DNA of 64,000 nucleotides from Actinomycetes bacterium (lineage in GTDB: Bacteria > Actinomycetota > Acidimicrobiia > Acidimicrobiales > RAAP-2): positions 1 through 64,000 of the forward strand of contig JAJYVT010000002.1 in the NCBI GenBank assembly GCA_021791845.1, written 5' to 3'. A program made the position numbers and the translations under genes. The notes below the pieces were generated by a model. The model ran no database searches. It saw only the letters and a program-made list of their open reading frames with translations, and was not told where the DNA came from. Shown here in pieces: positions 5,675 through 30,270 of this stretch (position 1 is its first letter; every line of letters begins with the position of its first letter).

Positions 5675-5750
5675 GCGGACGTGGCTCAGTTGGTAGAGCA
5701 TCACCTTGCCAAGGTGAGGGTCGCGGGTTCGAGTCCCGTCGTCCGCTCCA
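5675..5750 (+). tRNA. tRNA-Gly (anticodon GCC)
   Basis: A 76-base cloverleaf. The acceptor stem GCGGACG pairs with CGTCCGC. The anticodon stem TCACC/GGTGA (5701-5705 and 5713-5717) encloses the loop TTGCCAA with anticodon GCC at 5708-5710. The T-loop GGGTTCGAGTCCC is present, the discriminator is T5747, and CCA is encoded in the gene. It starts 14 bases after the acyltransferase stop. No integrase or repeated tRNA end was seen nearby, so there is no sign that it serves as an attachment site. Confidence 0.97.
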
Positions 5751-14185: not shown

Positions 14186-14200
14186 TATCGCGACACGACA
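14186..14200. promoter_or_regulatory. Candidate MarR operator, copy B
   Basis: TATCG-CGACA-CGACA lies 11 bases upstream of the ClC ATG, between the divergent ClC and DUF3565-DUF1971 genes. Four of five bases of the right arm match the CGATA of copy C. Confidence 0.45.
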
Positions 14201-14230
14201 TACAAGCGGCCGATGGGGTAGGGTGAGGCC

Positions 14231-14887: not shown

Positions 14888-14926
14888 TTGCACTGCAAGA
14901 GGATCTCGATCGGGAGAGGAGTCACG

Positions 14927-15487
14927 ATGAGCGACCAAGCCGAGATCCCCAGGAGTGTGACCGGAGCGAACGGAGCGAACGGTACGCCCCACCGGGAGGC
15001 AGCGGTGAGCCGAGCGACGCGATGGCAACCGGGTCGTCGCCTCCGGCGGCTGTGGACGGCGGTCACGTTCGCCGAACGGCGGCTGCGGGACCCCGCGGTG
15101 CACGACGACCGGTTCGACAGCTCCAGCTCTGCCGTGGTCGACGCGGCGTGCGCGCTGGTCACCGGTCGGGCCGCCGAGGGCTACGTCGCCGACGGGCGCA
15201 CCGTGCCGTACTGGGCCTGGGTCAATGCATTGGCGCACCGCCCGCACGAAGCGGTGGTGTCGCTCGCGATCCAGCGGCCCGAGGAGCCGTGGGCATGGGC
15301 GACCGTCGCCATCGCGGCGGAGCTGGAACGGCTCGAGCCGGAGGAGGTGTCGGCGCTGCGGGCCGCGGTGTTCGCACCGGCGGAGCTCGACGCCCTTGCC
15401 CGTCGGGGAGGCTCACCTGATGCCGTGCTCCGCTCCGTTCGCCGGCACGCGGCCGCCGCCCGCCAGGGACGGACGCGCACGGTGTGA
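14927..15487 (+). CDS. Hypothetical protein
   Basis: 186 residues, no family recognised. The ATG at 14927 is chosen because GAGAGGAG lies 7-8 bases upstream. An upstream ATG at 14888 has no ribosome site. The N-terminal 45 residues are disordered and repetitive (GANGANG), followed by a helical Ala/Glu/Arg-rich body with tryptophans (YWAWVNALAH, EEPWAWATVAIAAELERLEPEEV). No signal peptide or membrane helix. Dyad copy C lies just upstream, so it may be controlled with the MarR/ClC genes. Confidence 0.7.
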   Translation: MSDQAEIPRSVTGANGANGTPHREAAVSRATRWQPGRRLRRLWTAVTFAERRLRDPAVHDDRFDSSSSAVVDAACALVTGRAAEGYVADGRTVPYWAWVNALAHRPHEAVVSLAIQRPEEPWAWATVAIAAELERLEPEEVSALRAAVFAPAELDALARRGGSPDAVLRSVRRHAAAARQGRTRTV

Positions 15488-15569: not shown

Positions 15570-16277
15570 GTGGCCCTTGGCCCATTCGACGAGGTCGACG
15601 CCGTGGTGCTCGACGCCGGCGGCGTGCTCATGCTCCCCGACCCCGAGGCGTTCCGCCACCGGCTGGCGCCGTTCGGCGTGGTACCCGACGATGCTGCGTG
15701 CGTGCAGGCGCACTACGCCGGCGTCGCGGTGATCGACGGGCTGGGTGTGGCGGACTACGTCGAGGCCGATCGCAGCATGGCGCGGCTGTTCGGGGTCGAC
15801 GAGGCGGACGTCGATGCGGCGGCCGCCGCCATCGAGGCCGTCTATCTGGAGGAGCCCTTCGTTCCCATCCTCGGGGTGGCCGACGCCCTGCGGCGCCTCG
15901 AGGCGTCGGGGACGCTGCTGGCGGTCGTGTCGAACGCGACGGGTCGGGTGGAAGCGGACCTGGCGGTCCACGGCATCTGTGCCGTCGGTGACGGTGACGG
16001 TGGGCGCGCGGGCGGTCCGGCCGAGGTGACCGTGGTGGTCGACTCCCACCACGTCGGGGTGGAGAAGCCCGACCCCGCCATCTTCGCCGTGGCGCTCGAG
16101 GCGCTGGGGGTGGAGCCGCGCCGGTGCCTCTATGTGGGTGACTCCGTGCACTTCGACGTCAACGGGGCGGCAGCGGCCGGGCTCCGGGCCGTGCACCTGA
16201 CCCTCCTCGCCCAATGCGCCGGCGAGCATCTGCACTTTCCTGCGCTCGGCGCGTTCGTCGACGCCTTCCTCGGCTGA
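15570..16277 (+). CDS. HAD-superfamily hydrolase
   Basis: A 235-residue haloacid-dehalogenase-fold phosphatase. Motif I is VVLDAGGVL (nucleophile Asp; the second Asp is replaced by Gly, as in many DxGGVL members), motif II is VVSNATG, motif III is the Lys of VEKPDPAIF, and motif IV is YVGDSVHFDVNGA. An alpha-helical cap lies between motifs I and II. The substrate is unknown. The GTG at 15570 is used, because upstream sequence in this frame is non-homologous. It is the last gene with typical high-GC codon use before the A/T-richer island. Confidence 0.88.
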   Translation: MALGPFDEVDAVVLDAGGVLMLPDPEAFRHRLAPFGVVPDDAACVQAHYAGVAVIDGLGVADYVEADRSMARLFGVDEADVDAAAAAIEAVYLEEPFVPILGVADALRRLEASGTLLAVVSNATGRVEADLAVHGICAVGDGDGGRAGGPAEVTVVVDSHHVGVEKPDPAIFAVALEALGVEPRRCLYVGDSVHFDVNGAAAAGLRAVHLTLLAQCAGEHLHFPALGAFVDAFLG

Positions 16278-16390
16278 CGGGGCACCGTCGGCGTGTAACG
16301 CCGCGTCATTCCTGCGGCAGTGAGTGTACGGGCGGGCCCCGTGGGAGGCGAGGCCTTCGCGCAGTCATTTGCCGTGCTGCGACCAGACGA

Positions 16391-16433
16391 TTGACGCGGC
16401 CCACTGGAATCTGGTATACCAGATTCCAGTGGG
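16391..16433. promoter_or_regulatory. Autoregulated promoter: 34-bp perfect palindrome over -10, start site and GTG
   Basis: Bases 16400-16433 form a perfect 34-bp palindrome centred on CTGGTATACCAG, the TGGTnnACCA-type core of GntR/FCD operators. A promoter reads through it: TTGACG (16391-16396), 18 bases, TATACC (16415-16420). The predicted transcription start is at about 16427-16429, on the GTG start codon, which is itself inside the right arm. Bound repressor would cover -10, start site and start codon. A second small dyad GTATC-G-GATAC follows at 16435-16445. Confidence 0.85.
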
Positions 16434-17106
16434 CGTATCGGATACCAAACTGCAGTTGCCGTCTCGTGCGGCCGCTGTTGCCGACGAACTCGAGCGAGCC
16501 ATCCTGAGCGGTGAGATTCGTCCAGGCGAACCGCTAGTCGAGCGGACGTTGGCGGAGAGTTTCGGTATCTCGAAGACGCCCGTGCGGGAAGCCCTCAAAG
16601 TCCTGTCCCATCGGGGCTTCGTGGAGGCCGCCCCATATCGGGCCATCAGGGTGCGGCTAATCAGCGCTCAGGAAGCTCGCCATATCTATCAGGTGCGCAG
16701 CCTGATCGAACCCGAAGCCGTTCGACTGGCTGTGCCGTACCACGACGAAGAGTCGCTCCGGCGAGCGGCTGCGGCCCTGGACGCAGCCGAGGCCGCGAAG
16801 CGAGATCTTGCAGCGAAGGCAAGTGCAAACCGGCGCTTTCACCGCGCATTGTATGAGCCCTGCCCAAACCGACTTCTGTGCTCTCTTGCCGATGGCATTC
16901 AGGGCCAGGTAGCTCTCATCAGCGTTACCGCATGGATGAACTCGTCAACCTGGACCGACGAAGCTGCCGAGCATTCCGCAATTCTGTTGGCTCTCCGGTC
17001 CGGGGACCCCGAACTCGCTGCAGGGCGCCTTAGGAACCACATCGAGAAGTTCACGACAAATATCGCCACCGGAACGGCGACGAACGCTGTCTCCAGCGAG
17101 ATCTAG
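16429..17106 (+). CDS. GntR-family (FCD/FadR subfamily) regulator of the island
   Basis: A 225-residue regulator. The N-terminal winged helix is VADELERAILSGEIRPGEPL, then LAESFGISKTPVREALKVLSHRGFVEAA. The C-terminal FCD effector domain has the metal-site pattern (YQVRSLIEPEAVRLA, NRRFHRALYE, EHSAILLALRSGD). FCD regulators typically sense an organic or sugar acid and repress its catabolic operon. The GTG at 16429 lies in the palindromic operator and is probably leaderless. An upstream reading to 16324 would place the operator inside the gene and is less likely. As the first gene of the island it is the obvious pathway repressor. Confidence 0.92.
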   Translation: MGVSDTKLQLPSRAAAVADELERAILSGEIRPGEPLVERTLAESFGISKTPVREALKVLSHRGFVEAAPYRAIRVRLISAQEARHIYQVRSLIEPEAVRLAVPYHDEESLRRAAAALDAAEAAKRDLAAKASANRRFHRALYEPCPNRLLCSLADGIQGQVALISVTAWMNSSTWTDEAAEHSAILLALRSGDPELAAGRLRNHIEKFTTNIATGTATNAVSSEI

Positions 17107-17125
17107 CCACGTGTGGGGTGGGAAC

Positions 17126-19078
17126 GTGAATGAGTTCGAGCCGGTGCTATCAGAGCCGCCCCGAGCTGGTGTGCTGCCGCAGTTCATTATCAACCAGGCG
17201 CAATTTCATGCACGGGAGAGGCACCAGATCGACATTTCCACAGCACACCAGCATAAGAAGGAGCTGCGTGAAAGGCTCGCCGACTCACTCGGCATCACAC
17301 GACTTCCGCGCTGTGAAGCCTCCGCAAGGTCTCTTGGCGTAATCGAGCGAAGAGACTTCACGATTGAAAAGCTCGTCTTCGAGGCGACGCCTGGCCTCCC
17401 AGTGCCCGCACATCTCTACGCGCCGCGGGCTCCCGGACCACATCCTGCGGTCGTCCACGTCCCCGGGCACTGGATGGAGAACGCGAAGCTGGCACCGGAC
17501 ATCCAGCGAATGAACCTCGAGCTCGTGCAGAACGGCGTTGTCACGCTCTGCTACGACCCGCTGGGGCAGGGCGAGCGTCGAGTTGGTTGGCACCAGCACG
17601 GGCAGCTGGCGCCGTTGCTGGTCGGATTCACGTCAATGGCGGTGATGGTTCGCGACAGCCTGGCGGGAATCGACATCCTGTGCTCACGTGAGGAAGTGGA
17701 CTCCTCATGCATCGGCATGATGGGTGCGTCCGGCGGAGGCTTCTCTACGATCTTTGCATCTGCGCTCGACGACAGGATTAGTGCTGCCGCGATTGGGTGC
17801 ATCGTCAATTCCCACGTTGGGCAACTGCGCGATGCTGCTTATGGGACCGGATGGGACAGCTGGGTCGATCTGTGCAACCAGGTCCCTCGGCTCTGCCTTA
17901 TAGGCACGATGGCCGAGATACTCTCAGCCACGCTTCCGCGCAACCTTCTGGTTGCCAACGCGGACCATGATCCGGCCATTCCGATCAGTAGCGCTTTGGA
18001 GGTTGCGCACGAATTGGCCGGCATCGCAGAAGACCAAGACTGTGGTGACAGCTTCGAGTTCGCCATCGTGCCTGGTGGCCACGGACTTCATCCGGCGATG
18101 CGCGACGTCATGGGAAGCTTCATGGTCAGCCGGCTTGGACGCCAGGTGCATCATCACCTGCGCGATACGACAGCACTTCTGGCGCCCGAGTGGGACGTGG
18201 TCCACAATCGCGCGACTGCTCTTCGTCCCCAGAGTATGCAAAGGCGCCCCTCGGAGGATGCGTGCTGGGACGAGCCCGTGGACTCAAATAGGCCCGTCGT
18301 CGCGCTCGCTCAATCCTTGGCGATCCAATGCCGAACGACCAGATCGGCGTGTGACGCAAGCACGTTGAGGGGTCTTCTCGGTCCGTACCCCGATAAGCCG
18401 CAAGAGCGGCCATCGGTATCACTTCACGTCCCGACTGCGAACGGATACGTGCAACGTGTCCGCATTCCAATCGAGGAGGGAATCTACCTCGATGCGGCTC
18501 TCGCACTGCCACGGAACTGGTCGGACCAGCTCCCGCCCGTCTTCGTGATGCTCGATGAGGGCGGAAAGAGTCAAGCAGCCGCCTCACGTGAAGTAGAAGT
18601 GGCGCTGGCCCTCGGATGCGCCGCGCTACTTCCGGACCTACGAGGCACTGGGGAGATGGCAGCTTCGGAGTTTGAAGTTGCCAGCGGAGCATGGATGCTC
18701 GAGAGAGATCTCTTCAACCAGCGGCTGTGCGACACGTTCGGTGCGATTGACTTTCTCTCCAATCGCTACTCAACGGGCGCGCAGATCGACAAGGGGCGCA
18801 TCGTCCTATGGGGAAACGATGCGTTCGGGTTCCTGGCACTGGTCGCGGCCGCACTCGACGACCGTGTCGCTGCGGTGGGCGTGGGTCGGTTGGAGTCGCT
18901 CGAGGACTTGCTCGGAGAGAGCTCCGACTGTACCCCGATGGCGTATCGATACGGCCTGCTTCACGTAGTCGACGTGCCGCAACTGGTGGATCTCATGCGC
19001 CCGCGGAAGGCCTTCATCGGGGTGAAGGCCTCCGACCTGAGCGAAGTGATCCCGCTCGCCACCCAGGGCAGCCGATAG
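17126..19078 (+). CDS. Two-domain alpha/beta-hydrolase (acetyl-xylan-esterase/Abhydrolase_7-like)
   Basis: About 650 residues. The N-terminal domain has a full hydrolase triad: nucleophile elbow GASGGG, acid ADHDPAIP, and His in PGGHGLHP. PGHWMENAKLAPDIQ and YDPLGQGER resemble the acetyl-xylan-esterase-like bacterial group. The C-terminal half (from about residue 445) repeats the fold, but the elbow reads GNDAFG with no serine, so it is probably non-catalytic. It has no signal peptide, so the enzyme acts on an imported ester or lactone in the cytoplasm. The start is GTG 17126 with GGGGTGGG just upstream; GTG 17111 is an alternative. It follows gntR by about 20 bp. Confidence 0.8.
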   Translation: MNEFEPVLSEPPRAGVLPQFIINQAQFHARERHQIDISTAHQHKKELRERLADSLGITRLPRCEASARSLGVIERRDFTIEKLVFEATPGLPVPAHLYAPRAPGPHPAVVHVPGHWMENAKLAPDIQRMNLELVQNGVVTLCYDPLGQGERRVGWHQHGQLAPLLVGFTSMAVMVRDSLAGIDILCSREEVDSSCIGMMGASGGGFSTIFASALDDRISAAAIGCIVNSHVGQLRDAAYGTGWDSWVDLCNQVPRLCLIGTMAEILSATLPRNLLVANADHDPAIPISSALEVAHELAGIAEDQDCGDSFEFAIVPGGHGLHPAMRDVMGSFMVSRLGRQVHHHLRDTTALLAPEWDVVHNRATALRPQSMQRRPSEDACWDEPVDSNRPVVALAQSLAIQCRTTRSACDASTLRGLLGPYPDKPQERPSVSLHVPTANGYVQRVRIPIEEGIYLDAALALPRNWSDQLPPVFVMLDEGGKSQAAASREVEVALALGCAALLPDLRGTGEMAASEFEVASGAWMLERDLFNQRLCDTFGAIDFLSNRYSTGAQIDKGRIVLWGNDAFGFLALVAAALDDRVAAVGVGRLESLEDLLGESSDCTPMAYRYGLLHVVDVPQLVDLMRPRKAFIGVKASDLSEVIPLATQGSR

Positions 19079-19082
19079 CGCG

Positions 19083-20048
19083 ATGAGGATCACCCAGCCC
19101 GTACCTTGCGTAGCACGGCTCGATCAGGAGGATGGCGCACGGCTCTTGTCGCAGTTTGCGGTGCTTGGCGAGGGACGGTCTCTCATCGTGGACTCCGGTC
19201 TGCCGGAAACGCCCCGCCAAGTCCTTGCCCCATTTCTTGAGGAGCACGGGAGGGCGAACACACCCCTCGCGCTGGTGATTACCCACATGGACGCGGATCA
19301 CTGTGGGGGTACCGCGAACCTGAAACGTCTGGTCGGACCCACGACCATCATCGCTCACGCGAAGGAGAGTCCGCCCCTGGGCGATCCGGGAGCAACGCTC
19401 CGTCATCGCTATTCGCAGTTCGCGGCATCAGATGGCCTCCACCTCGATGTCGCCGCGGAGCGGCGCATCAGAGCACGACTTGGGGATCCATTCCGTGTTG
19501 ACATGCGGGTCAGTGCCAACTGCGAGGTGTCTCTTGGCTCTACGACTTGTGTCGTAGTCCACCTTCCCGGTCACACCGCAGGCCACTTGGGTGTGTGGAT
19601 ACCTGACGAGTCGGCGCTGATCGCAGGTGACGCCTTCATGGGAGCAGGGATCCGGACGCTCGAAGGGCGCGTCCTGTTTCCTCCGCAATTCGTAAGACCG
19701 TCCCTCTACCTGAGCACGATTCGGTTTGCACAAGAGCTTGATCCGGCCGTTCTGTTGTGCGCGCACGAAGAGACGATGATGCAGAGCAGCGCGTCGGCAT
19801 TCTTGGACAGCTGTCTAGTCATGGCCGAAGCGATCGTCGAGGCAGTTGAAGAGTCCGTCAGCGCAGGGGCGAAGTCGCTGCTTAACGTCTGTCACGAAGT
19901 CAAGCTCATCAATCGTGAGTGGGGGAATCTTCCTGACTCTGACTTCGCGATCAGTGTCGCTGGCTGCCTTTGCGAGATGACTGAAGAGGGTCGCGTGACA
20001 GTGGGTTTGCGAAATGGAGTGCGCACGTTTGAGAGGAGTGCCAAGTGA
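19083..20048 (+). CDS. Metallo-beta-lactamase-fold hydrolase
   Basis: A 321-residue MBL-fold protein. The metal motif reads THMDADHCGG (HxDxDH, with Asp at the usual second His), followed by HLPGHTAGHLGVWI, LIAGDAF and a late CAHEE. Members hydrolyse lactones, thioesters or other esters, so a lactonase step is plausible here, but the substrate is not known. The ATG at 19083 is 5 bases after the upstream stop, and its stop overlaps the next start (GTGA). It is translationally coupled inside the island. Confidence 0.85.
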   Translation: MRITQPVPCVARLDQEDGARLLSQFAVLGEGRSLIVDSGLPETPRQVLAPFLEEHGRANTPLALVITHMDADHCGGTANLKRLVGPTTIIAHAKESPPLGDPGATLRHRYSQFAASDGLHLDVAAERRIRARLGDPFRVDMRVSANCEVSLGSTTCVVVHLPGHTAGHLGVWIPDESALIAGDAFMGAGIRTLEGRVLFPPQFVRPSLYLSTIRFAQELDPAVLLCAHEETMMQSSASAFLDSCLVMAEAIVEAVEESVSAGAKSLLNVCHEVKLINREWGNLPDSDFAISVAGCLCEMTEEGRVTVGLRNGVRTFERSAK

Positions 20049-21262
20049 AGATCGCGCAGTTGAGGACGACCGTCGTCGCGGTTCCCCAGTTGCGGTCGTA
20101 CAAGTCATCGTGGAGAAGGAGCTACCACGGACGAGGTGCGCAGTGCAGCGTGCTCGTCGAACTTGAGACCGACGACGGACTTGTCGGCATTGGGGAGTCA
20201 CCTGTGGTGTACGCGGGACACCCCGAAGTGACGGTCGCACTCATCGGGGCCATCGGTGAGCTTCTCCTTGATGCCAGCCCCATGGACCACGACATCCTCA
20301 GAAAGAGGATGTACGCCGAGACCGGAATGGCCCATCTCGGCACGCAAGGGATGGCTTGGGCGTTGTCCGGCGTGGACATGGCTCTCTGGGACCTGATCGG
20401 CAAGGTGTTCCACCAGCCGTTGCACAAGGTGTGGGGTAGCCCGTGGCGTCTACGTTCGCCGTTCTACGCCGACGTCCCCCCGGCCGAACCAAAGATCATG
20501 GCGGACGAGGCAATCGAGTGGGTCGCTCGGGGATTCGAAACCATTTACTTCAAGGTAGGGTTCGACCCCAAACTGGACGTCGCAAGAATGGCAGCGATTA
20601 GGAATGCAGTCGGCGAGGACGTGAAGATCCGAGTCGATGCAAACCAGGCATGGTCTCCTGGCGCTGCACGCCGCATCATCCAAAAAATGGCCGAGTTCGA
20701 GCCTGAGTACATTGAACAACCGGTGCTCGCGTCGAACATCGTCGAAATGGCGACAGTGCGAAAGTCTGTATCGGTTCCGATTCTGGCGCACGAGGCATCA
20801 TTGTCAGTAGAGGGAAGCCTGGCTGTGATCATGCACCATGCAGCTGACGCTCTCCAACTGGACCCTCGCTTCGATGCTGGCTTTCAGGGTGCTCGTGTGG
20901 CTGCCCAGCTGGCGGAGGTGGCGGGTCTTCCGGTTGTCACCCACACGTTTGGTGAGCTTGGCGTAGCCACGGCAGCGGTCTTACAACTCCACGCCGCATA
21001 TCCAAACTTTTTGCTCGACAATCAGACTTACTACTGGAATCTCAAGGATGACGTGATCGAAGGTGGCCTCATGCCATTCGATGGCCGCTATTTGCATGTA
21101 CCTGAGGGCCCGGGTATAGGCGTGACGCTGGATAACGATCGAGTTCGTTACTATGCCGAATACTACGAGCGGGAAGTGAGGGACCGAGGAGACCGTCTTG
21201 TCTCCAACACACAAGAAGATGCGTATTACGACCTGCAGTACATCATGCGCCCGCGGGCGTGA
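20045..21262 (+). CDS. Mandelate racemase/enolase-superfamily acid-sugar dehydratase-like enzyme
   Basis: A 405-residue enolase-superfamily protein. The capping domain (residues 1-130) is followed by a barrel with YFKVGF (base Lys; the first Lys of the usual KxK is Tyr), metal ligands in RVDANQAWS, YIEQPV and LAHEAS, and a mandelate-racemase-type Asp/His pair in LQLDPRFDAGF and VVTHTFGELG. This points to the MR subgroup, which removes water from aldonic or aldaric acids to give 2-keto-3-deoxy acids, or racemises alpha-hydroxy acids. The dehydratase role is supported by the DapA-type and semialdehyde dehydrogenase genes downstream. The substrate cannot be read from sequence. Confidence 0.9.
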   Translation: MKIAQLRTTVVAVPQLRSYKSSWRRSYHGRGAQCSVLVELETDDGLVGIGESPVVYAGHPEVTVALIGAIGELLLDASPMDHDILRKRMYAETGMAHLGTQGMAWALSGVDMALWDLIGKVFHQPLHKVWGSPWRLRSPFYADVPPAEPKIMADEAIEWVARGFETIYFKVGFDPKLDVARMAAIRNAVGEDVKIRVDANQAWSPGAARRIIQKMAEFEPEYIEQPVLASNIVEMATVRKSVSVPILAHEASLSVEGSLAVIMHHAADALQLDPRFDAGFQGARVAAQLAEVAGLPVVTHTFGELGVATAAVLQLHAAYPNFLLDNQTYYWNLKDDVIEGGLMPFDGRYLHVPEGPGIGVTLDNDRVRYYAEYYEREVRDRGDRLVSNTQEDAYYDLQYIMRPRA

Positions 21263-21344
21263 GCGCAGGGCAATACCCGAGCAAAGGGCGTGCAGCACAA
21301 GCAAGAACGGCTTCGAAGAGAATCGTTTAGGGGAGGAGAAGCGG

Positions 21345-22787
21345 ATGTCAGTGGGAAGTGGCAAGAGGGTGGGAGAGGGGAACCGAAGTGACTTGGGCGA
21401 TGGACGCGTCATGGGGTCACCGAAGAAATCCCTCGTTTCGGGATGGGCATGGCGAGCTCTTGCGATTGCCGGCCTCTGCGTGGCACTTAGCGCAACCTGT
21501 GCGACGGTCGCGTCGGCTTCGGGACGGGTGAGGTCAGACAAGAAGTCGCAGTCGGCGCACCTCGTCTGGTGGTTTTGGGGCACAGGAGACGTTCCCGGCA
21601 TTCTGAAGTGGCTCCAGAGCGAGGGAAAGACTTACAAGAAGGCGCATCCAGGGGTGTCCGTCACAATCGTGCCTCAGGCTACGACAACGCTCATCGGAGC
21701 GTTTCAGACCGCAGCCTCGTCCAAGTCGGGGCCCACAATCGCGACGCAGTGGGCAACGTTGCCAACGCTGACGCCTGTCTGGGAAGGGGACGTCACTCCA
21801 GTCACATCTCTCGTGAAAAAGAAGACAATCGCCACCTGGCTCAACACGTCAGAGAACACGTACAAGAAGAAGCTGTGGGCGGTCCCCATCTACTTGCTCG
21901 GTACGCCGTTCGTATGGAACAAGAGCTTGTTCAAAAAGGCTGGACTGAACCCTACAAACGGGCCGAAAACGTGGGGACAGTTCATTTCCGACTGTGCCAA
22001 GCTCAAGGCCGCCGGCATCGTGCCGATCGTCTCGGGAGACAAGACAGGGGCTATCGGAGCATGGTTGCTCGGACTCGTCGGTGACCAGGGCCTCAACTCT
22101 GTGAAGCAGATCGAGGAGCTCGCGACCGGGAAGTACAGCTTGGACAGTAAGGCATATCGTACCGGCTTCGGCAAAATTGACCAACTTATCAAGCGCGGGT
22201 ACTTCAACTCCAACGTGTCCTCGATCACCTTGACACAGGCTTGGCAGCAATTCGCTCAAGGCAAGGGGGCGATGACGTGGGCGACGGACGGACAGACGCT
22301 TGCCATGCAGAAGGTGTTGCCCGCCGGCGCTGAAGGCGTAGAAAAGACGCCTGTGTGGGGCCGCGGAAAACTTGCAGGCTACTACGATGTGACGCAGTCC
22401 TCCGACGAGTTCATCACCTCATGGGCTGGGAACAAGCCTGCAGCGGCAGCCTTTCTGTCGTGGCTCAAGGAGCCCAAGCAGGTCAACAGCTTCTACTCAA
22501 CGCTCGGAGCGTTCCCCGCCTCGAAGGAGTTCGCGGCCTCGAAGGTCACGGATCCTCTCGCAAAGCAGCTCTACACGCTCGACACCGGGAAAAGGCAGGT
22601 ATGGACGGAGAACTTCTGGCCACCGCAAGTGACAACAAACGGCGTCCGACCCGCCTTGGAGACGATGTTCACCGGAGCGAGCGTGACAGCCACGATCAAG
22701 TCGATTCAACAGAGCTTCGCGACCTGGCGCCAAGAGCAGCCAACGCAGCTCCGGTACTTCACACGCTGGGTCAAGAGCCAGTCCTGA
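21345..22787 (+). CDS. Carbohydrate ABC transporter substrate-binding protein
   Basis: A 480-residue extracellular solute-binding protein, family 1. The ATG at 21345 has a GGGGAGGAG ribosome site 6-7 bases upstream. A long basic N-region, hydrophobic core (ALAIAGLCVALSATCATVA) and ASASG cleavage site form a signal peptide. No convincing lipobox is present, although a Cys lies in the core. The mature protein shows LVWWFWGTG, WAVPIYLLGTPFVWNKSLFKKAGL, GAMTWATDG and a C-terminal lobe typical of sugar-binding proteins. It catches the island's substrate for the two permeases encoded directly downstream. Confidence 0.92.
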   Translation: MSVGSGKRVGEGNRSDLGDGRVMGSPKKSLVSGWAWRALAIAGLCVALSATCATVASASGRVRSDKKSQSAHLVWWFWGTGDVPGILKWLQSEGKTYKKAHPGVSVTIVPQATTTLIGAFQTAASSKSGPTIATQWATLPTLTPVWEGDVTPVTSLVKKKTIATWLNTSENTYKKKLWAVPIYLLGTPFVWNKSLFKKAGLNPTNGPKTWGQFISDCAKLKAAGIVPIVSGDKTGAIGAWLLGLVGDQGLNSVKQIEELATGKYSLDSKAYRTGFGKIDQLIKRGYFNSNVSSITLTQAWQQFAQGKGAMTWATDGQTLAMQKVLPAGAEGVEKTPVWGRGKLAGYYDVTQSSDEFITSWAGNKPAAAAFLSWLKEPKQVNSFYSTLGAFPASKEFAASKVTDPLAKQLYTLDTGKRQVWTENFWPPQVTTNGVRPALETMFTGASVTATIKSIQQSFATWRQEQPTQLRYFTRWVKSQS

Positions 22788-22879
22788 GCAGTGGCGGACA
22801 TGCCGGTTCGAAGCAACACGTGGTGCGCGTCATCGCTGTACGCGCAAGGGGCTGGTAGAGGCGCAAAGGAGTACCACGC

Positions 22880-23833
22880 GTGACCCAGCTCAGCAGAGAG
22901 ATGGTGCCGGCACCCGAGACGGTCGTGACTCTCCGGTCGCGACCGTCTCGGAGGGCCGCCCGCCGACGGAGGGGCTCGGGAAGGTTATGGCCGTACCTCT
23001 TTGCGCTTCCAGCGCTGGCCGTTCTCGGGCTCGTGTTCGCGTATCCGCTGGTCGCCGTGGTCAGAGACAGCTTCTATAGCGGAACAGCCTCGAACCTATC
23101 CTTTAGCGGACTCAGCAACTATCACTTGGTTCTCTCAAATCCGATCTTCATCCAGTCGCTGTTGAACAACCTTCGTCTCTTGACGACGGTGCCGGTCATG
23201 ACGGTGATTGCCTTGATTATTGCTCTCGTCCTGAACGAGATCGTGCGGGGGTGGAAGGCCTACAGGTTCATTGTCTTCATTCCTTACATTCTGCCTGCGG
23301 TTGCCATGGGCCTCGCATTTTCGTACATTTTGCAACAGAACGGATCACTGAACTCCCTTCTCGGAGATCTTCACCTTCGGGCTTTGGCACTTGACTGGCT
23401 GGGATCTGAGCAGATTTCGATCTACTCGGTCGGGGGAGTGATCGTGTGGCAACAACTTGGGTTCGGCATCGTGCTCTTCACCGCTGGGCTGTTGTCACTG
23501 CCACAGGAGGTGATCGAGGCGTCGGTTGTCGATGGCGCAAGTTGGTGGCAGCGTCAGTTGTATGTGGTCTTGCCGCAATTGAGGCGCGTCATCGAGTTGT
23601 TTGTCGTGCTGCAAGCGATCACGGTGCTTTCATGGGTATTTACCTATGTATACGTGATCACCCATGGAGGTCCGGGAACCTCCTCGAGCGTTATGACATA
23701 CTACATTTGGCAAAATGGCTTCGAATTTGGAGCGGTAGGAATCGCATCGACTGCGGCGGTTATTCTCCTGGCTATGGCGGGGGTCCTTATCACGATCTAT
23801 GTAACGCTCAGGGTTCGAAGAGGAGACCTGTGA
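22880..23833 (+). CDS. ABC sugar permease, MalF/UgpA type
   Basis: A 317-residue inner-membrane permease with six helices and a basic N-terminal tail. The ATPase-docking EAA loop is EASVVDGASWWQRQLYVVLPQL-like near residue 215. The GTG start at 22880 follows AAAGGAG. The stop is fused to the GTG of the second permease (GTGA), so the two subunits are made together. It pairs with the binding protein upstream and the ATPase at 27606. Confidence 0.92.
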   Translation: MTQLSREMVPAPETVVTLRSRPSRRAARRRRGSGRLWPYLFALPALAVLGLVFAYPLVAVVRDSFYSGTASNLSFSGLSNYHLVLSNPIFIQSLLNNLRLLTTVPVMTVIALIIALVLNEIVRGWKAYRFIVFIPYILPAVAMGLAFSYILQQNGSLNSLLGDLHLRALALDWLGSEQISIYSVGGVIVWQQLGFGIVLFTAGLLSLPQEVIEASVVDGASWWQRQLYVVLPQLRRVIELFVVLQAITVLSWVFTYVYVITHGGPGTSSSVMTYYIWQNGFEFGAVGIASTAAVILLAMAGVLITIYVTLRVRRGDL

Positions 23834-24654
23834 TCGCATCTGGAACGCGCGCGGCCATGCGCCACATCATCATGGTGCTCCTGAGTCTGGTAAGTCTCTA
23901 CCCGATCTGGTTCACGCTTCAGACTGCCCTGAAGTCGCAACGGACATTTGTTCTGGCTCCCGTGGCGCTTCCACTGCATCCGACGTTCGCCAACTTCGGG
24001 AATGTCCTTGCCCAGACTCCGCTGTTGACCTGGACGGTGAACAGCGTTGTCGTCACTGTCTCAGCGGTGGCCGCTTCTGTGGTGCTCGCGCTGCTTGCGA
24101 GCTTTGCGCTTGTGTTCGGAACATTTCGGGGGCGCGCCGCACTGTTGCGAGCGGATCTGGTCTTTATGGTGGTGCCTCCTGTTGTTCTGCTCTTGCCGAT
24201 GTTCACCTTGATGCTTACGATTCATTTGTTCAACACGCTGGAATCGGTAATCATCTTTTATGTCGGCTTGAATTTGCCGTTCTCGATTTTCTTTCTCGTG
24301 AACTTTCTTCGTACGGTGCCGAGAGAAATCGTGGAAGCGGGAACGATGGACGGGTGTTCGCCCTGGCGGCTGCTATGGCAGATCGTTACGCCGATGGCAG
24401 GGGCCGGGGTTTTCACGCTTGTCGTCGTCAATGCTGTATATGTCTGGAACGAGACGCTGGTCGCTCTTGTATTTCTCCAAAGTCAAGGGAAGCGCACTCT
24501 CATGGCGGGTCTTGCGGAGTATGTGGGGAGGTTCGGTTCCAATGAGCCATTGATTCTTGCGGGTGCCTTCTTGTCAATGATACCCATGTTGTTGCTGTAC
24601 TTTGCGGGTCAGCGGTTCTTCATTCGGGGACTGACTGCTGGTATCGGCAAGTGA
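23830..24654 (+). CDS. ABC sugar permease, MalG/UgpE type
   Basis: A 274-residue second permease with six helices. The EAA loop is EAGTMDGCSPWRLLWQIVTP. It starts YPIWFTLQTALKSQRTF after the first helix, as in MalG-type subunits. The start is GTG 23830, inside the stop of the first permease and preceded by GAGGAGA. This subunit is among the most A/T-rich stretches of the island. Confidence 0.92.
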   Translation: MIASGTRAAMRHIIMVLLSLVSLYPIWFTLQTALKSQRTFVLAPVALPLHPTFANFGNVLAQTPLLTWTVNSVVVTVSAVAASVVLALLASFALVFGTFRGRAALLRADLVFMVVPPVVLLLPMFTLMLTIHLFNTLESVIIFYVGLNLPFSIFFLVNFLRTVPREIVEAGTMDGCSPWRLLWQIVTPMAGAGVFTLVVVNAVYVWNETLVALVFLQSQGKRTLMAGLAEYVGRFGSNEPLILAGAFLSMIPMLLLYFAGQRFFIRGLTAGIGK

Positions 24655-24725
24655 TCCCAGCAAAGTGGGGGCGATAGGGAGTGAATGTGGTTGAGAAAGA
24701 GCCTGAACAGGGAGGAAGGTGTCCC

Positions 24726-25628
24726 GTGAGTGTGGTTGCGACGCGGGGTGGAGAATTTGCAGGGGTCAATGGCATCCCCGTGACGCCGTTCCAAGATGGT
24801 GGCTGCGTGGATCATGAGGCACTCGGCACGGTTGTGGAACGCATGGTGGCGGCCGGTGTGGATGTAATTGTCGCGTGTGGTAACACGAGTGAGTACGGCA
24901 GCTTGACGTCTGCCGAGGCGATCGCTGTCGCTGGCTCCACGATTGAGGCAGCGGGCAGGTGTTCGTCGTTGGTGGGCATTGGGGGGGACGTGGAGACCGC
25001 CATTCAAGAAGCTCGTGCAGGTGTAGCTCGGGGAGCATCGGGCATCATGGTGCACTATCCGGCCGATGTATATGTGTCGGACGCGGGGCTGATCGAGTAC
25101 TACGGGAGAATCGTGTCCGCCATCGAGGCCCCGGTGGTGCTGTACGTTCGAGATCGGGGTTTGGGCGGCCGCGTCCTGGAGAATGTGCTTCGGTTCGAGA
25201 ACGTGGTGGCTGTGAAGTATGCACTGCCCGATCTACTGGGGTTTGCTGGCTTCGTTCGGGAGTTTGGCAGCGACGTGGTTGCTCTGTGTGGACTTGCGGA
25301 GATGTGGGCGCCGTTTTTCTGGCTCCTCGGAGCGAAAGGCTTCACCTCGGGGCTTGTCAACGTTGAACCGGGGCTGTCGCTCGGGCTCTGGACAGCGTTG
25401 AAGTCGGGAGATTTCAAGTTGGCGTTGGCGTACTGGGAGAAGATCCGTCCATTTGAGGAGCTGCGGGCGCGACATCGGAGCGGGCTGAACGTCTCCGTTG
25501 TCAAGGCAGCAATGCTGCTCCGGGGGCTTCTCTCGGACGGAACGGTTCGACCTCCGATCACGGACTTGGACGAAGCGGAGCTGAGCGAGGTCAAGGCCGT
25601 GTTGAGCTCCTGGGACGCAGGGGCCTGA
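24726..25628 (+). CDS. DapA-family lyase/dehydratase (KDG aldolase or 5-keto-4-deoxyglucarate dehydratase type)
   Basis: A 300-residue Schiff-base TIM-barrel enzyme. Visible are GIPVTPF at the N-terminus, GNTSEYGSLTSAEA (in place of GTTGE, as in non-DHDPS members), the catalytic Tyr in VVLYVRDRG and the Schiff-base Lys in VVAVKYALPD. The GTG at 24726 is preferred: GGAGGAAGG lies upstream and the length is then family-standard. A GTG at 24681 is possible. With the MR-type dehydratase and the aldehyde dehydrogenase it suggests 2-keto-3-deoxy acid to 2-oxoglutarate semialdehyde, but retro-aldol cleavage cannot be excluded. Confidence 0.88.
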   Translation: MSVVATRGGEFAGVNGIPVTPFQDGGCVDHEALGTVVERMVAAGVDVIVACGNTSEYGSLTSAEAIAVAGSTIEAAGRCSSLVGIGGDVETAIQEARAGVARGASGIMVHYPADVYVSDAGLIEYYGRIVSAIEAPVVLYVRDRGLGGRVLENVLRFENVVAVKYALPDLLGFAGFVREFGSDVVALCGLAEMWAPFFWLLGAKGFTSGLVNVEPGLSLGLWTALKSGDFKLALAYWEKIRPFEELRARHRSGLNVSVVKAAMLLRGLLSDGTVRPPITDLDEAELSEVKAVLSSWDAGA

Positions 25629-25631
25629 GCC

Positions 25632-26369
25632 GTGGGGGTGGTCGTCATAACCGGGAGCAGCGGCGGGCTGGGTTCGGCTGCGGCTCGGGCGTTTTCAGTG
25701 GCAGGGTTTGAGGTGATCGGTCTCGACCGGGTCGCCACGGGGTCGGAGTCGATCCGTCACGTCCAAGTGGACGTTGCGGATGAGGCGTCGATGGAGCGGG
25801 CGTTGGCGGACATTGGGGCAGTGCAACATCTCGTGGCGATCGCAGGCGGAGCTCTCGTAGAGGAGAAGGCCGCGCCGGACATAGCAGCGTTGCCAATTGA
25901 TCTGGTGCGGCGCTCACTTGAGCAGAACTTGATCAGTGCGTTTGTCACGCTGCGTACCGCGATGCCGAAGCTCCGGGAGGCATCGGGAGACCGCAGCGTG
26001 ACGTTCGTCACGTCCACCGACGCGCTGTTGTCTTACGGCATGCCGGGTTATGCGGCAGCAAAAGCTGGAATCATCGGCTTGGTGCGGTCGTTGGCGAGCC
26101 CGTTGGGTGCCGAGGGAATCAGAGTCAATGCGATTGCACCAGGTGATATACCTACTCCGCGGAACGCGAGGGAGTGGGCCCATCTTCCCATGTGGTATGA
26201 GCACTTGGCTGGTTCGACTGCGCTGAGACGACTCTGTAGTGCTGAGGAGCTAGCTGACGCGTTTGTCAGTGTGGCGACGCAACTACGGGGAGTCACTGGG
26301 CAGGTGATCGTTGTGGATGCGGGACTGACCGTGTCAGCTGGCGTTAGTGCCGCGGTGACCCACGAGTGA
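25632..26369 (+). CDS. Short-chain dehydrogenase/reductase
   Basis: A 245-residue SDR. The cofactor motif TGSSGGLG, the AIAGG variant of NNAG, the catalytic Ser in FVTSTDALLS, the Tyr-Lys pair YAAAK and the PG motif NAIAPGDIPTP are all present. LDR in the second strand suggests NAD(H). In the island it could oxidise a sugar or hydroxy acid before dehydration, or reduce a keto group. It starts 4 bases after the DapA-type gene and its stop overlaps the next GTG. Confidence 0.9.
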   Translation: MGVVVITGSSGGLGSAAARAFSVAGFEVIGLDRVATGSESIRHVQVDVADEASMERALADIGAVQHLVAIAGGALVEEKAAPDIAALPIDLVRRSLEQNLISAFVTLRTAMPKLREASGDRSVTFVTSTDALLSYGMPGYAAAKAGIIGLVRSLASPLGAEGIRVNAIAPGDIPTPRNAREWAHLPMWYEHLAGSTALRRLCSAEELADAFVSVATQLRGVTGQVIVVDAGLTVSAGVSAAVTHE

Positions 26370-27586
26370 AGGACGTCGCACCACTGGGCACCGGGCACGG
26401 GTCAGGCGTGGGTGAGCTGTTGCGTGATGCGTGGCCTTCCCCGGTTGGTGTGGTCCGGATGGATCGCCTGGACCGAAACATCGTGGGCATGCAAGAATGG
26501 GCCGAGGGTGCGCGAGTTGAGCTCGCGCCACATGCAAAGACGACGCTTGCTCCAGTGATCCTACGCAAGCAAGTTGACGCCGGAGCATGGGGACTGACCG
26601 TTGCCAACGTGGAACAAGCTTCGATCGCGTTGGACGTCGGTGCTGAGAACGTCCTGATTGCCAATGAAGTTGTCGACCCGATCTCCATCAGGCGCCTGGC
26701 AGAGCTGCGAGGGGTAAAGAGATTGATCTGTTATGTGGACAGCGTCAGGGGCGTAGAAATCTTGGACGGTGCTCTTGGAAGCTCGCAGCGTCCCGGCACA
26801 CGTCCACTCGATGTGTTGATTGAGCTCGGAGTCGTGGGCGGCAGAGCTGGTGTTCGTGATCTAACGACGGCGATTGAGGTCGCTCGTACTGCCGCCGCGG
26901 CTGCTTCGCTTCGGGTGGTCGGGGTTGGTGGGTTCGAAGGCGTGATTCCGCGGCGGGATGCCGCAGATGCTGCGGAGCGAGTGGCTGACTTCTGTCAGCA
27001 ACTGGTCGAGTGCGCGGACGTTCTGGTCGATAGGGGGTTCGTCGACTGTTCTGAATCCGATCCTGTGATCCTCACTGCGGGGGGTTCGCTGTTCTTCGAC
27101 GTAGTTGCAACAGTGCTGGTTTCTCAGAGTGCCCGTTGCGGCTATCCCACGAGAACGGTGATACGACCTGGGTGTTATGTGACCCATGACCATGGGATGT
27201 ACGAGCGGTTGTCCCCATTCACCCAGAGGCGGCGCGGCCCATCCCTTGAAGCGGCGCTCGAGGTTTGGGGGCGCGTCTTGTCACGGCCAGAGGTATCGCG
27301 AGTCATTGTCGATGTTGGTCGGCGTAACGCTTCATATGATCATGAACTTCCGCGCCCGCTTTGGTGGTGTGGGGCGTCGGGCGAGAGGTCACCATGTAAA
27401 GCTGTTGTCAGGAGTCTGGCCGACCAGCACGCGTTGGTTGACATCAAGGAGGAACTGACACTGGCGGTTGGTGACTGGATGGGCTTCGGCGTCTCGCATC
27501 CGTGCACGACGTTCGACAAGTGGCGGATGCTGATTGGAATCGACGCCTCCGGGCGCGTAGTGGAGGAGATAGCAACGTGCCTTTAG
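26366..27586 (+). CDS. D-threonine aldolase/D-serine dehydratase-like PLP enzyme (fold type III)
   Basis: A 406-residue enzyme with an alanine-racemase-type barrel carrying the PLP lysine in APHAKTTLAP near residue 58. A C-terminal D-serine-dehydratase-like domain has the metal-binding His-Cys pair in GVSHPCTTFDKW. Relatives cleave or dehydrate D-beta-hydroxy amino acids using PLP and a divalent metal. Such an enzyme is unusual in a sugar-acid operon and suggests that the imported molecule carries an amino group, or that the pathway makes a beta-hydroxy amino acid. The start is GTG 26366, coupled to the SDR by GTGA. Confidence 0.85.
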   Translation: MKDVAPLGTGHGSGVGELLRDAWPSPVGVVRMDRLDRNIVGMQEWAEGARVELAPHAKTTLAPVILRKQVDAGAWGLTVANVEQASIALDVGAENVLIANEVVDPISIRRLAELRGVKRLICYVDSVRGVEILDGALGSSQRPGTRPLDVLIELGVVGGRAGVRDLTTAIEVARTAAAAASLRVVGVGGFEGVIPRRDAADAAERVADFCQQLVECADVLVDRGFVDCSESDPVILTAGGSLFFDVVATVLVSQSARCGYPTRTVIRPGCYVTHDHGMYERLSPFTQRRRGPSLEAALEVWGRVLSRPEVSRVIVDVGRRNASYDHELPRPLWWCGASGERSPCKAVVRSLADQHALVDIKEELTLAVGDWMGFGVSHPCTTFDKWRMLIGIDASGRVVEEIATCL

Positions 27587-27605
27587 TGGGGGGGTCATCA
27601 TAGGT

Positions 27606-28736
27606 ATGGCTGAGATACATCTTGAGCAAGTGACCAAGAAGTATCCGAACGGAGTCGTTGCCGTCAAGGAAATAACACTGGCGATAGCCGACGGTGAATT
27701 CTTGGTGCTCGTCGGCCCGTCAGGATGCGGCAAGACGACGCTCCTTCGCATGATCGCCGGCCTCGAAAAAATCACTGAGGGCAAGATTCTGATTGGCTCG
27801 CGGGTGGTTAACGATGTAGGACCTCGGGACCGGGATATTGCGATGATATTCCAGAACTATGCGCTCTACCCGCATATGACGGTAGGCCAGAATATCGGAT
27901 TCGCGCTCAAGTTGCGTGGCGTTCCGAAAGGTGAAGTCAGCCAGAAGGTGGCTGAAGCTGCCAACCTCCTGGGGTTAGGCGAATGGCTCGATCGGCGACC
28001 TGCACAACTGTCGGGCGGACAGCGGCAACGGGTTGCAATGGGACGAGCCATCGTCCGGGAGCCCGCAGCGTTTTTGATGGATGAGCCCCTTTCGAATTTG
28101 GACGCGAAACTTCGAGTGCAGATGCGTGCGGAGGTGAGCCGGCTGCAGCGGCGACTTGCCGTTGCCACGGTCTACGTGACCCACGATCAAATGGAAGCGA
28201 TGACGATGGGCGACCGGGTGGCCGTGATGAAGGACGGGGTGCTGCAGCAGTGCGCCGACCCTCAGAGTCTTTACGATCACCCGTCGAATGTCTTCGTTGC
28301 CGGGTTCATTGGATCCCCAGCGATCAACCTCTTCGAAGCAGTACTGGAAGACGGACACACGCTTCGACTGGGTTCTCAGCGGATTCCGCTGCCAGCCAGT
28401 GGTAGCGCATCTGCGCTTCCGAAGTATTACGGGCAAAAGGTGTTGGTAGGAATACGGCCCGAGCATCTGTCTACGCATGCCAATGGGTCGACTGCATCAC
28501 TCGAAGTAGACGTGGATCTAGTTGAGGCCTTGGGAAGCGAGCAGCTTGTGCACTTCTCGATTGACGCCCCTCGAGCGCTGTCGGAAGGCGTGGGACAGAG
28601 CGGGCTGAGCCTTCGGGGAGAAGGTATTGCTCGGGCGGAGGCGCGCGCTGCCATTAGGCGAGGTGAACGAAGAACCTTGGCCATCGACGCTTCCGAGCTG
28701 CACTACTTTGACTGCGAGAGTGGCCTTGCCATATGA
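27606..28736 (+). CDS. ABC transporter ATPase (MsmK/UgpC/MalK type)
   Basis: A 376-residue ATPase. Walker A is GPSGCGKTT (residues 38-46), the Q-loop is QNYALYPH, the signature is LSGGQRQRV, Walker B is FLMDEPLS and the H-loop is VTHD. It ends in a TOBE/regulatory domain (GIRPEHL). It drives the importer formed by the binding protein at 21345 and the permeases at 22880 and 23830. The ATG is 19 bases after the PLP enzyme stop. The ATPase is separated from its permeases by three enzyme genes, which tightly ties transport to catabolism. Confidence 0.95.
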   Translation: MAEIHLEQVTKKYPNGVVAVKEITLAIADGEFLVLVGPSGCGKTTLLRMIAGLEKITEGKILIGSRVVNDVGPRDRDIAMIFQNYALYPHMTVGQNIGFALKLRGVPKGEVSQKVAEAANLLGLGEWLDRRPAQLSGGQRQRVAMGRAIVREPAAFLMDEPLSNLDAKLRVQMRAEVSRLQRRLAVATVYVTHDQMEAMTMGDRVAVMKDGVLQQCADPQSLYDHPSNVFVAGFIGSPAINLFEAVLEDGHTLRLGSQRIPLPASGSASALPKYYGQKVLVGIRPEHLSTHANGSTASLEVDVDLVEALGSEQLVHFSIDAPRALSEGVGQSGLSLRGEGIARAEARAAIRRGERRTLAIDASELHYFDCESGLAI

Positions 28737-28761
28737 GTAGCCGAGGGCTTAAGGGGATTCG

Positions 28762-30270
28762 GTGAGTCAAGCTCAGTCGTCTAGGGAGTCGATCCCGTTG
28801 CCAACCACGGCAATAGCGGTGGATCAAGTGGCCGAGGCAGCCAGTGGTGCGGCGCACTGGTTCAAGGAGCGCACCCCTGACGAGAGAAGCGAGCTTCTCG
28901 AGGCTATTGCTGGCGCATTGGATGCGGTCCAGGTTGACGCTGTGAGGATCGCCGAGGAGGAGACGCATCTTGGGGTGGAGCGCCTGAGAGGTGAATTGGC
29001 GCGGACCACGTTCCAGCTGCGGTTCTTCGGGCAGGTATTGACGGCCGGTTGGGTTGCTCCGCTGGTCATCGACCACGCAGACTCCCAGTGGCCGGTGGCG
29101 CCTCGGCCGGACCTTCGGCGGGTGCTTGTCCCAATTGGGCCGGTTGTCGTCTTTGCTGGAGGGAACTTCCCCTTCGCATTCAGCGTGGCGGGAGGCGATG
29201 TAGCTTCGGCGTTGGCCGCTGGTTGCCCAGTGATTGTCAAGGCGCACCCGGGTCACCTGAGACTGAGCCGGTTGGTTGCGGACACCGTTGCGGCTGCGCT
29301 TCAGAGGCGGGGGGCTCCGTCTGGCACCTTTCAGCTTGTGGTCGGCGACGAAGCTGGAAGGGCAATCCTGAGTCATCCGTGCGTGAGGGCAGCCGCATTC
29401 ACGGGTTCTGTGCGGGTGGGACGGATGCTCTTTGATTTGGCGAATCGGCGACCTGTACCCATCCCCTTCTACGGTGAGCTGGGGAGTCTCAATCCCGTCT
29501 TCATCACCGAGCGAGCAGCGTCGGAGCGCCTGGATGCGATTCTTGATGGGTTCCTCCAGTCCTTCACCCTCGGCAACGGTCAGTTTTGCACCAAGCCAGG
29601 CCTTCTAGTCGCACCTGAAGCATGTTCAGCGGCGGACTTGCTCGCCGAACGGTTGGCTTCGAATGGCCCGCAGCGGATGCTCTCGGATGCGATTGCCTCG
29701 GCTCACGCTGCGAGGTGCGGTGAACTTGTTGCTAGTGACGGCGTGCGCGTCGTGAAGCAGGGGCAAGTCACGGAAGACGGTGTTACCTCAACGATCGTCG
29801 AAGCTTCTATGGCGGTGATGCGATCGGAGTTCGCGAACCTCACTGCGGAGAGCTTCGGACCGGCTGCCGTCGTTGCGGTGTGTTCGTCTCATAACGAAAT
29901 GCTTGAGCTCGCGGGACTGTTAGATGGCCAGCTCACTGGCGCTGTCTTCGGGGACGAAGATGACCCGGCTGCAGCCGACCTCGTGAAGGTGCTCGTCGAG
30001 CGTGTGGGTCGGATCGTGTGGAACGGATGGCCGACGGGCGTGGCCGTTAGCTGGGCGATGCACCATGGCGGTCCTTACCCCGCGACGACGTCGCCGCTGA
30101 CTTCTTCTGTTGGGGCGTCGGCTCTTGCGAGATTTCTTCGGCCCGTGGTCTTCCAAGGGTTCCCGGACCGGATGTTGCCGGATGCCGCACGCGATGAGAA
30201 CTTGGCCGAAAGTGCCATCGTCCGCGATGGCGCCTGGCAACCTGCGCGGCTGGCAGCAGATCACCGCTGA
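28762..30270 (+). CDS. Aldehyde dehydrogenase, 2-ketoglutarate-semialdehyde-dehydrogenase type
   Basis: A 502-residue NAD(P)-dependent aldehyde dehydrogenase close to the sugar-acid-pathway KGSADH group. The nucleotide-binding segment is PIGPVVVFAGGNFPFAFSVA, the general base Glu is in YGELGSLNPVFI and the catalytic Cys in NGQFCTKPG. The C-terminal GRIVWNGWPTGVAVSWAMHHGGPYPATT is characteristic of the group. It would oxidise 2-oxoglutarate semialdehyde to 2-oxoglutarate, the last step into the TCA cycle. The start is GTG 28762. It is the last gene of the island. Confidence 0.93.
   Translation: MSQAQSSRESIPLPTTAIAVDQVAEAASGAAHWFKERTPDERSELLEAIAGALDAVQVDAVRIAEEETHLGVERLRGELARTTFQLRFFGQVLTAGWVAPLVIDHADSQWPVAPRPDLRRVLVPIGPVVVFAGGNFPFAFSVAGGDVASALAAGCPVIVKAHPGHLRLSRLVADTVAAALQRRGAPSGTFQLVVGDEAGRAILSHPCVRAAAFTGSVRVGRMLFDLANRRPVPIPFYGELGSLNPVFITERAASERLDAILDGFLQSFTLGNGQFCTKPGLLVAPEACSAADLLAERLASNGPQRMLSDAIASAHAARCGELVASDGVRVVKQGQVTEDGVTSTIVEASMAVMRSEFANLTAESFGPAAVVAVCSSHNEMLELAGLLDGQLTGAVFGDEDDPAAADLVKVLVERVGRIVWNGWPTGVAVSWAMHHGGPYPATTSPLTSSVGASALARFLRPVVFQGFPDRMLPDAARDENLAESAIVRDGAWQPARLAADHR

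Follow-up and report, generated by a model that had tools for sequence, protein, structure and literature searches.

The question raised by this locus is what a compact block of twelve catabolic genes does in the genome of an actinomycete (GenBank assembly GCA_021791845.1), and which substrate it serves. The block lies on the plus strand at about 16.4-30.27 kb of the analysed stretch of 64,000 nucleotides (hereafter the window), which corresponds to positions 1-64000 of the 105,346-base contig C46 in a draft genome of 3.5 Mb (91 % complete, 160 contigs). We consider it somewhat better than an even chance that the genes form an operon which imports a sugar-acid-like substrate and leads it to 2-oxoglutarate by non-phosphorylative steps. 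Horizontal acquisition of the block (hereafter the island) is strongly indicated. The individual reactions, the substrate, the single transcript and the operator are what we infer from sequence.

The gene block and its relatives

An earlier note on this DNA had described twelve genes on one strand, and the open reading frames (ORFs) and Pfam families place the block where that note put it, with the families as it read them. The genes are intact and tightly packed, neighbours overlapping by as much as 4 bp or lying up to 92 bp apart. The mean GC content of the island is 0.600, compared with 0.727-0.744 in the flanks. In 1-kb windows it drops at the left edge from 0.745 (15-16 kb) to 0.656 (16-17 kb) and then 0.610, stays between 0.55 and 0.63 from 17 to 30 kb, and rises at the right edge from 0.624 to 0.719 at 30-31 kb, so the shift to A/T-richer DNA with sharp edges was also seen correctly. 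The island genes have a GC content of 0.63-0.75 at third codon positions, compared with 0.84-0.96 for four host genes.

When 84,980 genomes were scanned with six exact peptide patterns taken from the island protein of the MR/MLE family (the MR protein), a method that distant loci can escape, six loci were found. Two of them are orthologous. Locus L013, in the metagenome-assembled genome (MAG) 'Actinomycetes bacterium FK5.bin99' (MR protein 80 % identical), contains all 12 of the 12 genes in identical order, with best-segment identities of 58-82 %. Locus L014, in the MAG 'Actinomycetota bacterium UFOp-RH-14apr17-26' from freshwater (43 % GC), has an MR protein with 69 % identity. The remaining four (L015-L018) were set aside: their MR identity is 27 %, and the matches beside it were only generic ones, to an ABC ATPase (L016-L018) and to a short-chain dehydrogenase/reductase (SDR; L016). 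The search of other genomes suggested in the earlier note thus recovered the complete gene order once; its author knew of no described operon with this set, and we likewise know of no characterisation of this gene order.

Internal stops were absent from all 12 genes in both the window and L013, with the regulator gene read from the GTG 16429 region. Between these two copies, third codon positions are 38-47 % identical and second positions 76-92 % in each of the genes, again with the regulator read from that region. This is the pattern expected from purifying selection, and it indicates that all 12 genes are under such selection and that the copies diverged from one another long ago.

At the left edge of the L013 gene set, GC falls from 0.74-0.77 to 0.58-0.67. 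Rightward it remains at 0.58-0.68 up to the contig end; no right edge was seen, and the GC-poor block of L013 thus extends past the gene set. In this continuation (L013 past the twelve genes and L086, the rest of the contig) lie a TIM-barrel (AP_endonuc_2) gene, sugar-isomerase-like, and the genes of a second ABC sugar transporter of the periplasmic-binding-protein-4/BPD_transp_2 type, all of them absent from the window island. The L014 core has eight genes (the tandem hydrolase, the metallo-beta-lactamase (MBL)-fold protein, the MR protein, the binding protein, two permeases, the DapA-type enzyme and the SDR) in DNA of uniformly 39-47 % GC, and at that place lacks the GntR, pyridoxal phosphate (PLP) enzyme, ATPase and aldehyde dehydrogenase (ALDH) genes. 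The description of the island as a closed set was therefore too strong, the more so as it contains no glycosidase and GC-poor DNA with a second sugar transporter continues in L013.

Families and residues of the encoded proteins

The tandem alpha/beta hydrolase (17111..19078; AXE1-like), a presumed ester hydrolase by Pfam and residues, has Ser207-Asp287-His324 in its first half, which matches AXE1, and no nucleophile Ser in its second half. Outside the Spirosoma member (L080), which was left out of the alignment, the triad is present in 9/9 aligned members, including haloarchaeal and planctomycete ones, and the second-half Ser in 0/9. The closest solved sequence, over residues 48-235, is 6goc, the pectin methylesterase BT1017 according to passages of PMC7939467, from which it shares the G-x-S-x-G-G nucleophile motif and the Ser/Asp/His type of triad. 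It differs from BT1017 in having a degenerate second half and no DUF3826 match, and no signal peptide was apparent by eye. The AlphaFold2 model of the protein was poor (pLDDT 41.5).

The MBL-fold hydrolase (19083..20048; Pfam) conserves H68-x-D70-x-D72-H73, H164, D183 and H228 in 3/3 orthologs. It is a presumed sugar lactonase because of its gene context. Among three haloarchaeal loci with homologues (~30 %), which are 3 of 97 matching records and include none of the 85 from Rhizobium, the homologue adjoins an SDR in two, and the third stretch (L057) holds MR and FAH genes and a gene annotated xacR. An MBL fold for the pentonolactonase of Haloferax was not used as an argument; the Weimberg review (cited below) puts pentonolactonases in SMP-30, and a second paper leaves the fold unnamed.

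The MR/MLE protein (20045..21262; enolase superfamily) is a presumed sugar-acid dehydratase by Pfam and residues. Lys170 (with Gly172), Asp198, Glu224, Glu250 and His300 are kept in 4/4 aligned proteins and Asp273 in the 3 orthologs; the metal ligands and the His-Asp dyad would be among these residues. Its nearest solved protein is 2pgw.

Transport genes follow: a CUT1-type carbohydrate-binding protein (21345..22787, its start corrected to 21345; Pfam and solved relatives), permease 1 (22880..23833) and permease 2 (23830..24654), both by Pfam, and, farther along, a MalK-type ATPase with the MalK OB domain (27606..28736; Pfam). The start of permease 2 was corrected to near 23830, as the ORF in the list begins at 23446, inside permease 1, and the L013 gene starts at 9422.

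The DapA-type enzyme (24681..25628), a DHDPS-family, KdgD-like dehydratase or aldolase by Pfam, NCBIfam and residues, keeps Tyr131 and Lys179-Tyr-Ala in 3/3 orthologs. Its nearest solved proteins, 3e96 and 3d0c, were both deposited as dihydrodipicolinate synthase. The profile scores given below suggest that it resembles KdgD without belonging to it. In passages of PMC9795676, L-KDA dehydratase is described with Gln143 in place of the Tyr and with Glu173 two residues past the Schiff-base Lys171. Both features are absent from the island enzyme, with positions matched by eye, and the Tyr is kept, so this identity was rejected. A DapA-type deaminase of hydroxyproline breakdown was also rejected, as no match to the DapA of an Arthrobacter locus (L009) was obtained at 1e-8. 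Around DapA homologues (4 of 827 matching records), a GntR gene is beside or near in 4/4 loci, an MR gene in 2/4 and an SMP-30 gene in 2/4.

The next gene encodes a classical SDR (25632..26369; Pfam, NCBIfam), a presumed sugar 1-dehydrogenase. It is followed by the PLP enzyme (26366..27586) of the D-serine dehydratase kind, with the D-ser_dehydrat domain (PF14031). The part of PMC4401734 on metal sites gives His347 and Asp349 as the metal ligands and His193 as the base of D-threonine aldolase; in D-serine dehydratase, His and Cys bind the metal and an equivalent of His193 is absent. The island enzyme has Lys58, His378-x-Cys380 and an Arg at the His193 position. It thus carries the metal site of the dehydratase and lacks both the metal site and the base of the aldolase, and the D-threonine-aldolase-like chemistry proposed in the earlier note does not hold. 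Because of this metal site (His-x-Cys, no base His), the enzyme is probably an ammonia-lyase. RidA genes are found near PLP homologues in 4/5 plasmid loci (5 of 550 matching plasmid records were inspected) and also in L055.

The last gene of the block encodes a KGSADH-type ALDH (28762..30270; family and residues), for which the nearest solved proteins are 1eyy and 3v4c. It keeps Cys276 and Glu239, presumably the catalytic residues, and is 52 % identical to an Arthrobacter ALDH in a proline-racemase/DapA cluster (L009) that is of hydroxyproline type by gene content.

Proposed route, substrate class and rival explanations

In the proposed route, one GntR/FCD regulator would govern the operon and the CUT1 ABC transporter would bring in a sugar acid with substituents, or a glycoside of it. 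The alpha/beta hydrolase would take off an ester first, the SDR would oxidise C1 to form a lactone, the MBL-fold enzyme would open the lactone, and the MR-type enzyme would dehydrate the acid to a 2-keto-3-deoxy acid. The PLP ammonia-lyase would convert D-configured 2-amino-3-hydroxy acids to the same kind of product, so that amino-sugar acids would have an entry point of their own. The KdgD-like enzyme would then turn the 2-keto-3-deoxy acid into 2-oxoglutarate semialdehyde (KGSA), which the ALDH would oxidise to 2-oxoglutarate. At the family level only, the genes support the non-phosphorylative logic recognised in the earlier note, with a KGSADH-type enzyme for the last step.

The neighbourhoods of distant homologues point to uronic and amino-sugar acids. 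Among seven loci with hydrolase homologues, a DapA-family gene is annotated near in three (matching the island DapA in two), a D-aminoacylase in two, heparinase II/III in two, and GH20 and a DgaE homologue in one each. The Natrononativus locus L077 combines the hydrolase, DapA, the DgaE homologue (34 %) and a D-aminoacylase homologue; positions 1-15047 of this plasmid also hold three Gfo/Idh oxidoreductases and FAH, perhaps an amino-sugar-acid route. Directly downstream of the L014 core (16015-20841) are genes for a DgaE-like PLP enzyme (199.1 vs 385.3 bits, under the cut-off), an SDR, a second MR and an SMP-30 lactonase, and the same set holds a 294-aa protein that matches no Pfam family. About 4 kb upstream lies an amidohydrolase homologous to annotated D-aminoacylases; an SDR, RidA and the homologue of the island PLP enzyme are upstream as well, and UxaC and a mannitol-dehydrogenase-family gene are farther out. 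Elsewhere in the L014 genome, homologues of the island PLP enzyme (38 %, same contig) and ALDH (41 %) were found, the latter less than 5 kb from PfkB, FAH and IlvD/EDD genes in a set that is Weimberg-like by gene content. From this context a uronic or amino-uronic acid is the favoured substrate class. It is a tentative and rather doubtful extension that the operon gives dual entry for both parts of a uronic/amino-uronic glycan: once C1 is oxidised and the lactone open, the MR enzyme would form the 2-keto-3-deoxy-hexarate from the uronate-derived acid and the PLP ammonia-lyase would form it from the amino-uronate-derived one, the two branches feeding one KdgD-like enzyme and KGSADH. In this reading an unrelated DgaE-type enzyme would take the PLP step in other lineages.

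A number of observations weigh against the proposed route. Among the matches listed for the 10 proteins scanned with NCBIfam (all except permease 2 and the ATPase; for the SDR, the first 25 of 218 matches), 0/10 reached a curated cut-off. The MR protein scored 32.4 of 828.7 bits with the glucarate dehydratase model and 112.7 of 500 bits with the talarate/galactarate dehydratase model. The DapA-type enzyme scored 128.7 bits against a cut-off of 373.95 for KdgD (TIGR03249), its best specific equivalog, and 145.7 of 278 bits with the KdgD subfamily model; the ALDH scored 60.7 bits against a cut-off of 770 for the KGSADH equivalog NF042993. The Pfam scan found no glycosidase in the island despite its CUT1-like binding protein, the promoter/terminator scan gave results at chance level, and the PLP gene is missing from the L014 core. 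Two of the seven hydrolase loci (L080, L081) contain no recognised sugar-acid genes, L079 has an annotated DapA without a match to the island DapA, and this context comes from homologues of 26-31 % identity in 7 of 22 plasmid records. The homologue-context samples are all small, were drawn from the top of each match list and lack a formal background rate. Finally, the D-aminoacylase-like protein has no homologue at E 1e-10 in the window genome (91 % complete), which weakens an N-acetyl-amino-sugar-acid route there; a 28 % homologue is present in the L013 genome.

Other explanations were weighed, with likelihoods that overlap with that of the proposed route and need not sum to one. The fit of the first hydrolase half to AXE1 would suit a Weimberg-type pentose route with an acetyl esterase, as would a weak match of the binding protein to a xylo-oligosaccharide-binding protein (3zkk, E 8.5e-12) and the presence of MR, FAH, an arabinofuranosidase-domain gene and the gene annotated xacR in L057. 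Here an acetylated pentose or xylo-oligosaccharide would be imported and deacetylated, the sugar oxidised by the SDR, its lactone opened by the MBL-fold enzyme, and the acid dehydrated by the MR and DapA enzymes and oxidised to 2-oxoglutarate without carbon loss. Since the island has no beta-xylosidase and its DapA-type enzyme keeps the Tyr and shows neither of the L-KDA dehydratase features (Gln143, Glu173) described in PMC9795676, we regard this route as rather improbable.

The DapA-type enzyme may, with its catalytic Tyr, instead be an aldolase. It would then cleave the 2-keto-3-deoxy acid to pyruvate and an aldehyde for oxidation by the ALDH. The type I aldolase residues Tyr131 and Lys179 are kept, and a profile search placed the YagE aldolase (89.6 bits) above the KdgD structure 4ur7 (81.7 bits). 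Among NCBIfam equivalogs, however, KdgD was best (128.7 vs 43.4 bits for archaeal KDG aldolase), and relatives of the ALDH sit in clusters that yield KGSA by gene content; an aldolase route therefore appears unlikely. Most doubtful is a conjugate of a sugar acid with a D-beta-hydroxy amino acid (D-serine, D-threonine), split by the hydrolase and deaminated by the PLP enzyme as an end in itself. The PLP enzyme is similar to 3gwq, a structure deposited as D-serine deaminase, and in Pantoea, Rahnella and Pseudomonas its homologues have genes of amino acid ABC transporters as neighbours. Yet the island transporter is of the CUT1 (carbohydrate) type and the L014 core has been kept without a PLP gene inside it, so this reading has very little probability in our view.

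Probable acquisition, candidate operator and known pathways

The claim that the island is one acquired catabolic unit was upheld by the same order in L013, by its sporadic distribution and by an empty site in a congener. In even samples of the phylum, the hydrolase (E 1e-30) and the MR protein (1e-60) each had a match in 1 of 396 genomes, the window's own. A search of the host family at 1e-70 gave 1/172, again the window's own with no match in the other 171, and the family sample of L014 gave 1/151, its own. As L013 was not among the host family matches, its genome appears to belong to another family; in a comparison of one gene, in part, the L013 PutA fragment is 59 % identical to that of the window and that of a congener 80-83 %. 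An assembly chimera is unlikely because an independent MAG carries these genes as well, again behind an abrupt GC step.

Eight congeners were compared at the site, and both flanks were visible in G003 only, several others ending at contig ends near the gene. In G003 a single contig carries the left flank, as far as the 3' end of tRNA-Gly(gcc) (5675..5750, plus strand), and 1.3 kb away the right flank, beginning with the aminotransferase gene (30351); 5.75-30.35 kb is thus absent from it. This segment exceeds the island by 10.5 kb of high-GC genes, and more than one insertion or a loss in G003 may therefore be involved. Of the 24.6 kb in question (5751-30350), the first 10.5 kb encodes a Big_3_5 repeat protein, CtaA/Cox15, TauE and a HAD hydrolase. 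No integrase domain was found among the proteins scanned, and a duplicate of the tRNA 3' end as an attachment site was rejected, as only the tRNA copy itself was recovered with up to 3 mismatches. Beyond the right edge, 30348-32696 (minus strand) encodes a 782-aa protein in which an APH phosphotransferase domain is fused with a class-III aminotransferase, with a match at 1e-50 in 11/13 genus genomes including its own (one partial, 34 %). It is followed by a GH76 gene (32704-33888, plus strand) with a G003 homologue at the same place (60 % identity).

At the head of the block, the GntR/FCD regulator (16429..17106; 78 % amino acid identity to L013) has an ORF open from 16324. A palindrome scan of the window detected a perfect 36-bp palindrome with 18-nt arms at 16399..16434; the arms of the next-longest measure 11 nt, and none longer than 10 arose in 20 mononucleotide shuffles. 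It overlaps GTG 16429, which is in frame with GntR, and the gene may start there rather than at 16324. The palindrome is a candidate GntR operator, although the stretch may also be coding if the start is at 16324. At the same place in L013, 26/34 bases are identical and only 9/17 symmetric pairs are kept. The operator core TGGTATACCA, with at most 1 mismatch, has a single site in the window and none in L013 and L014.

The oxidative hexuronate/aldarate pathway consists of uronate dehydrogenase, aldarate dehydratase, KdgD and KGSADH. The island shares its order of C1 oxidation, lactone, MR-type dehydration, DHDPS-family dehydration/decarboxylation and KGSADH; it differs in that none of its enzymes scores high enough for the curated model of the function in question and the SDR is classical, and in its additional esterase, MBL-fold hydrolase and PLP enzyme. 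With the Weimberg pathway, as outlined in part of the review PMC9795676, it has a dehydrogenase, a lactonase, two dehydratases and KGSADH in common, but the lactonase there is SMP-30 and here presumably MBL-fold, the L-KDA dehydratase residues are lacking, and an esterase and a PLP enzyme are added. A plasmid mini-operon of Streptomyces sp. NBC_00963 (L062; GntR-DapA-ALDH-MR-MFS) is similar in GntR (42 %), DapA (40 %) and ALDH (44 %), whereas its MR is just 24 % identical, its carrier is MFS, and no esterase, MBL, SDR or PLP genes are annotated beside it. Searches of an open-access library turned up no title that names an operon of this kind. The pathway logic is known; the gene combination, the MBL-fold hydrolase in the place of the lactonase and the PLP dehydratase would be new.

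If the proposed model is true, the island would encode a rare way to 2-oxoglutarate that has spread laterally, in which the lactonase has an unusual fold and a PLP enzyme admits amino-sugar acids. It would also assign a common substrate to seven enzymes from large superfamilies with poor annotation. Context is also gained for a hydrolase family whose members carry the annotation 'acetylxylan esterase' or 'prolyl oligopeptidase'. Even if the route should prove to be an ordinary uronate or pentose one, the island still shows that an enzyme easily read as D-threonine aldolase carries the dehydratase metal site.

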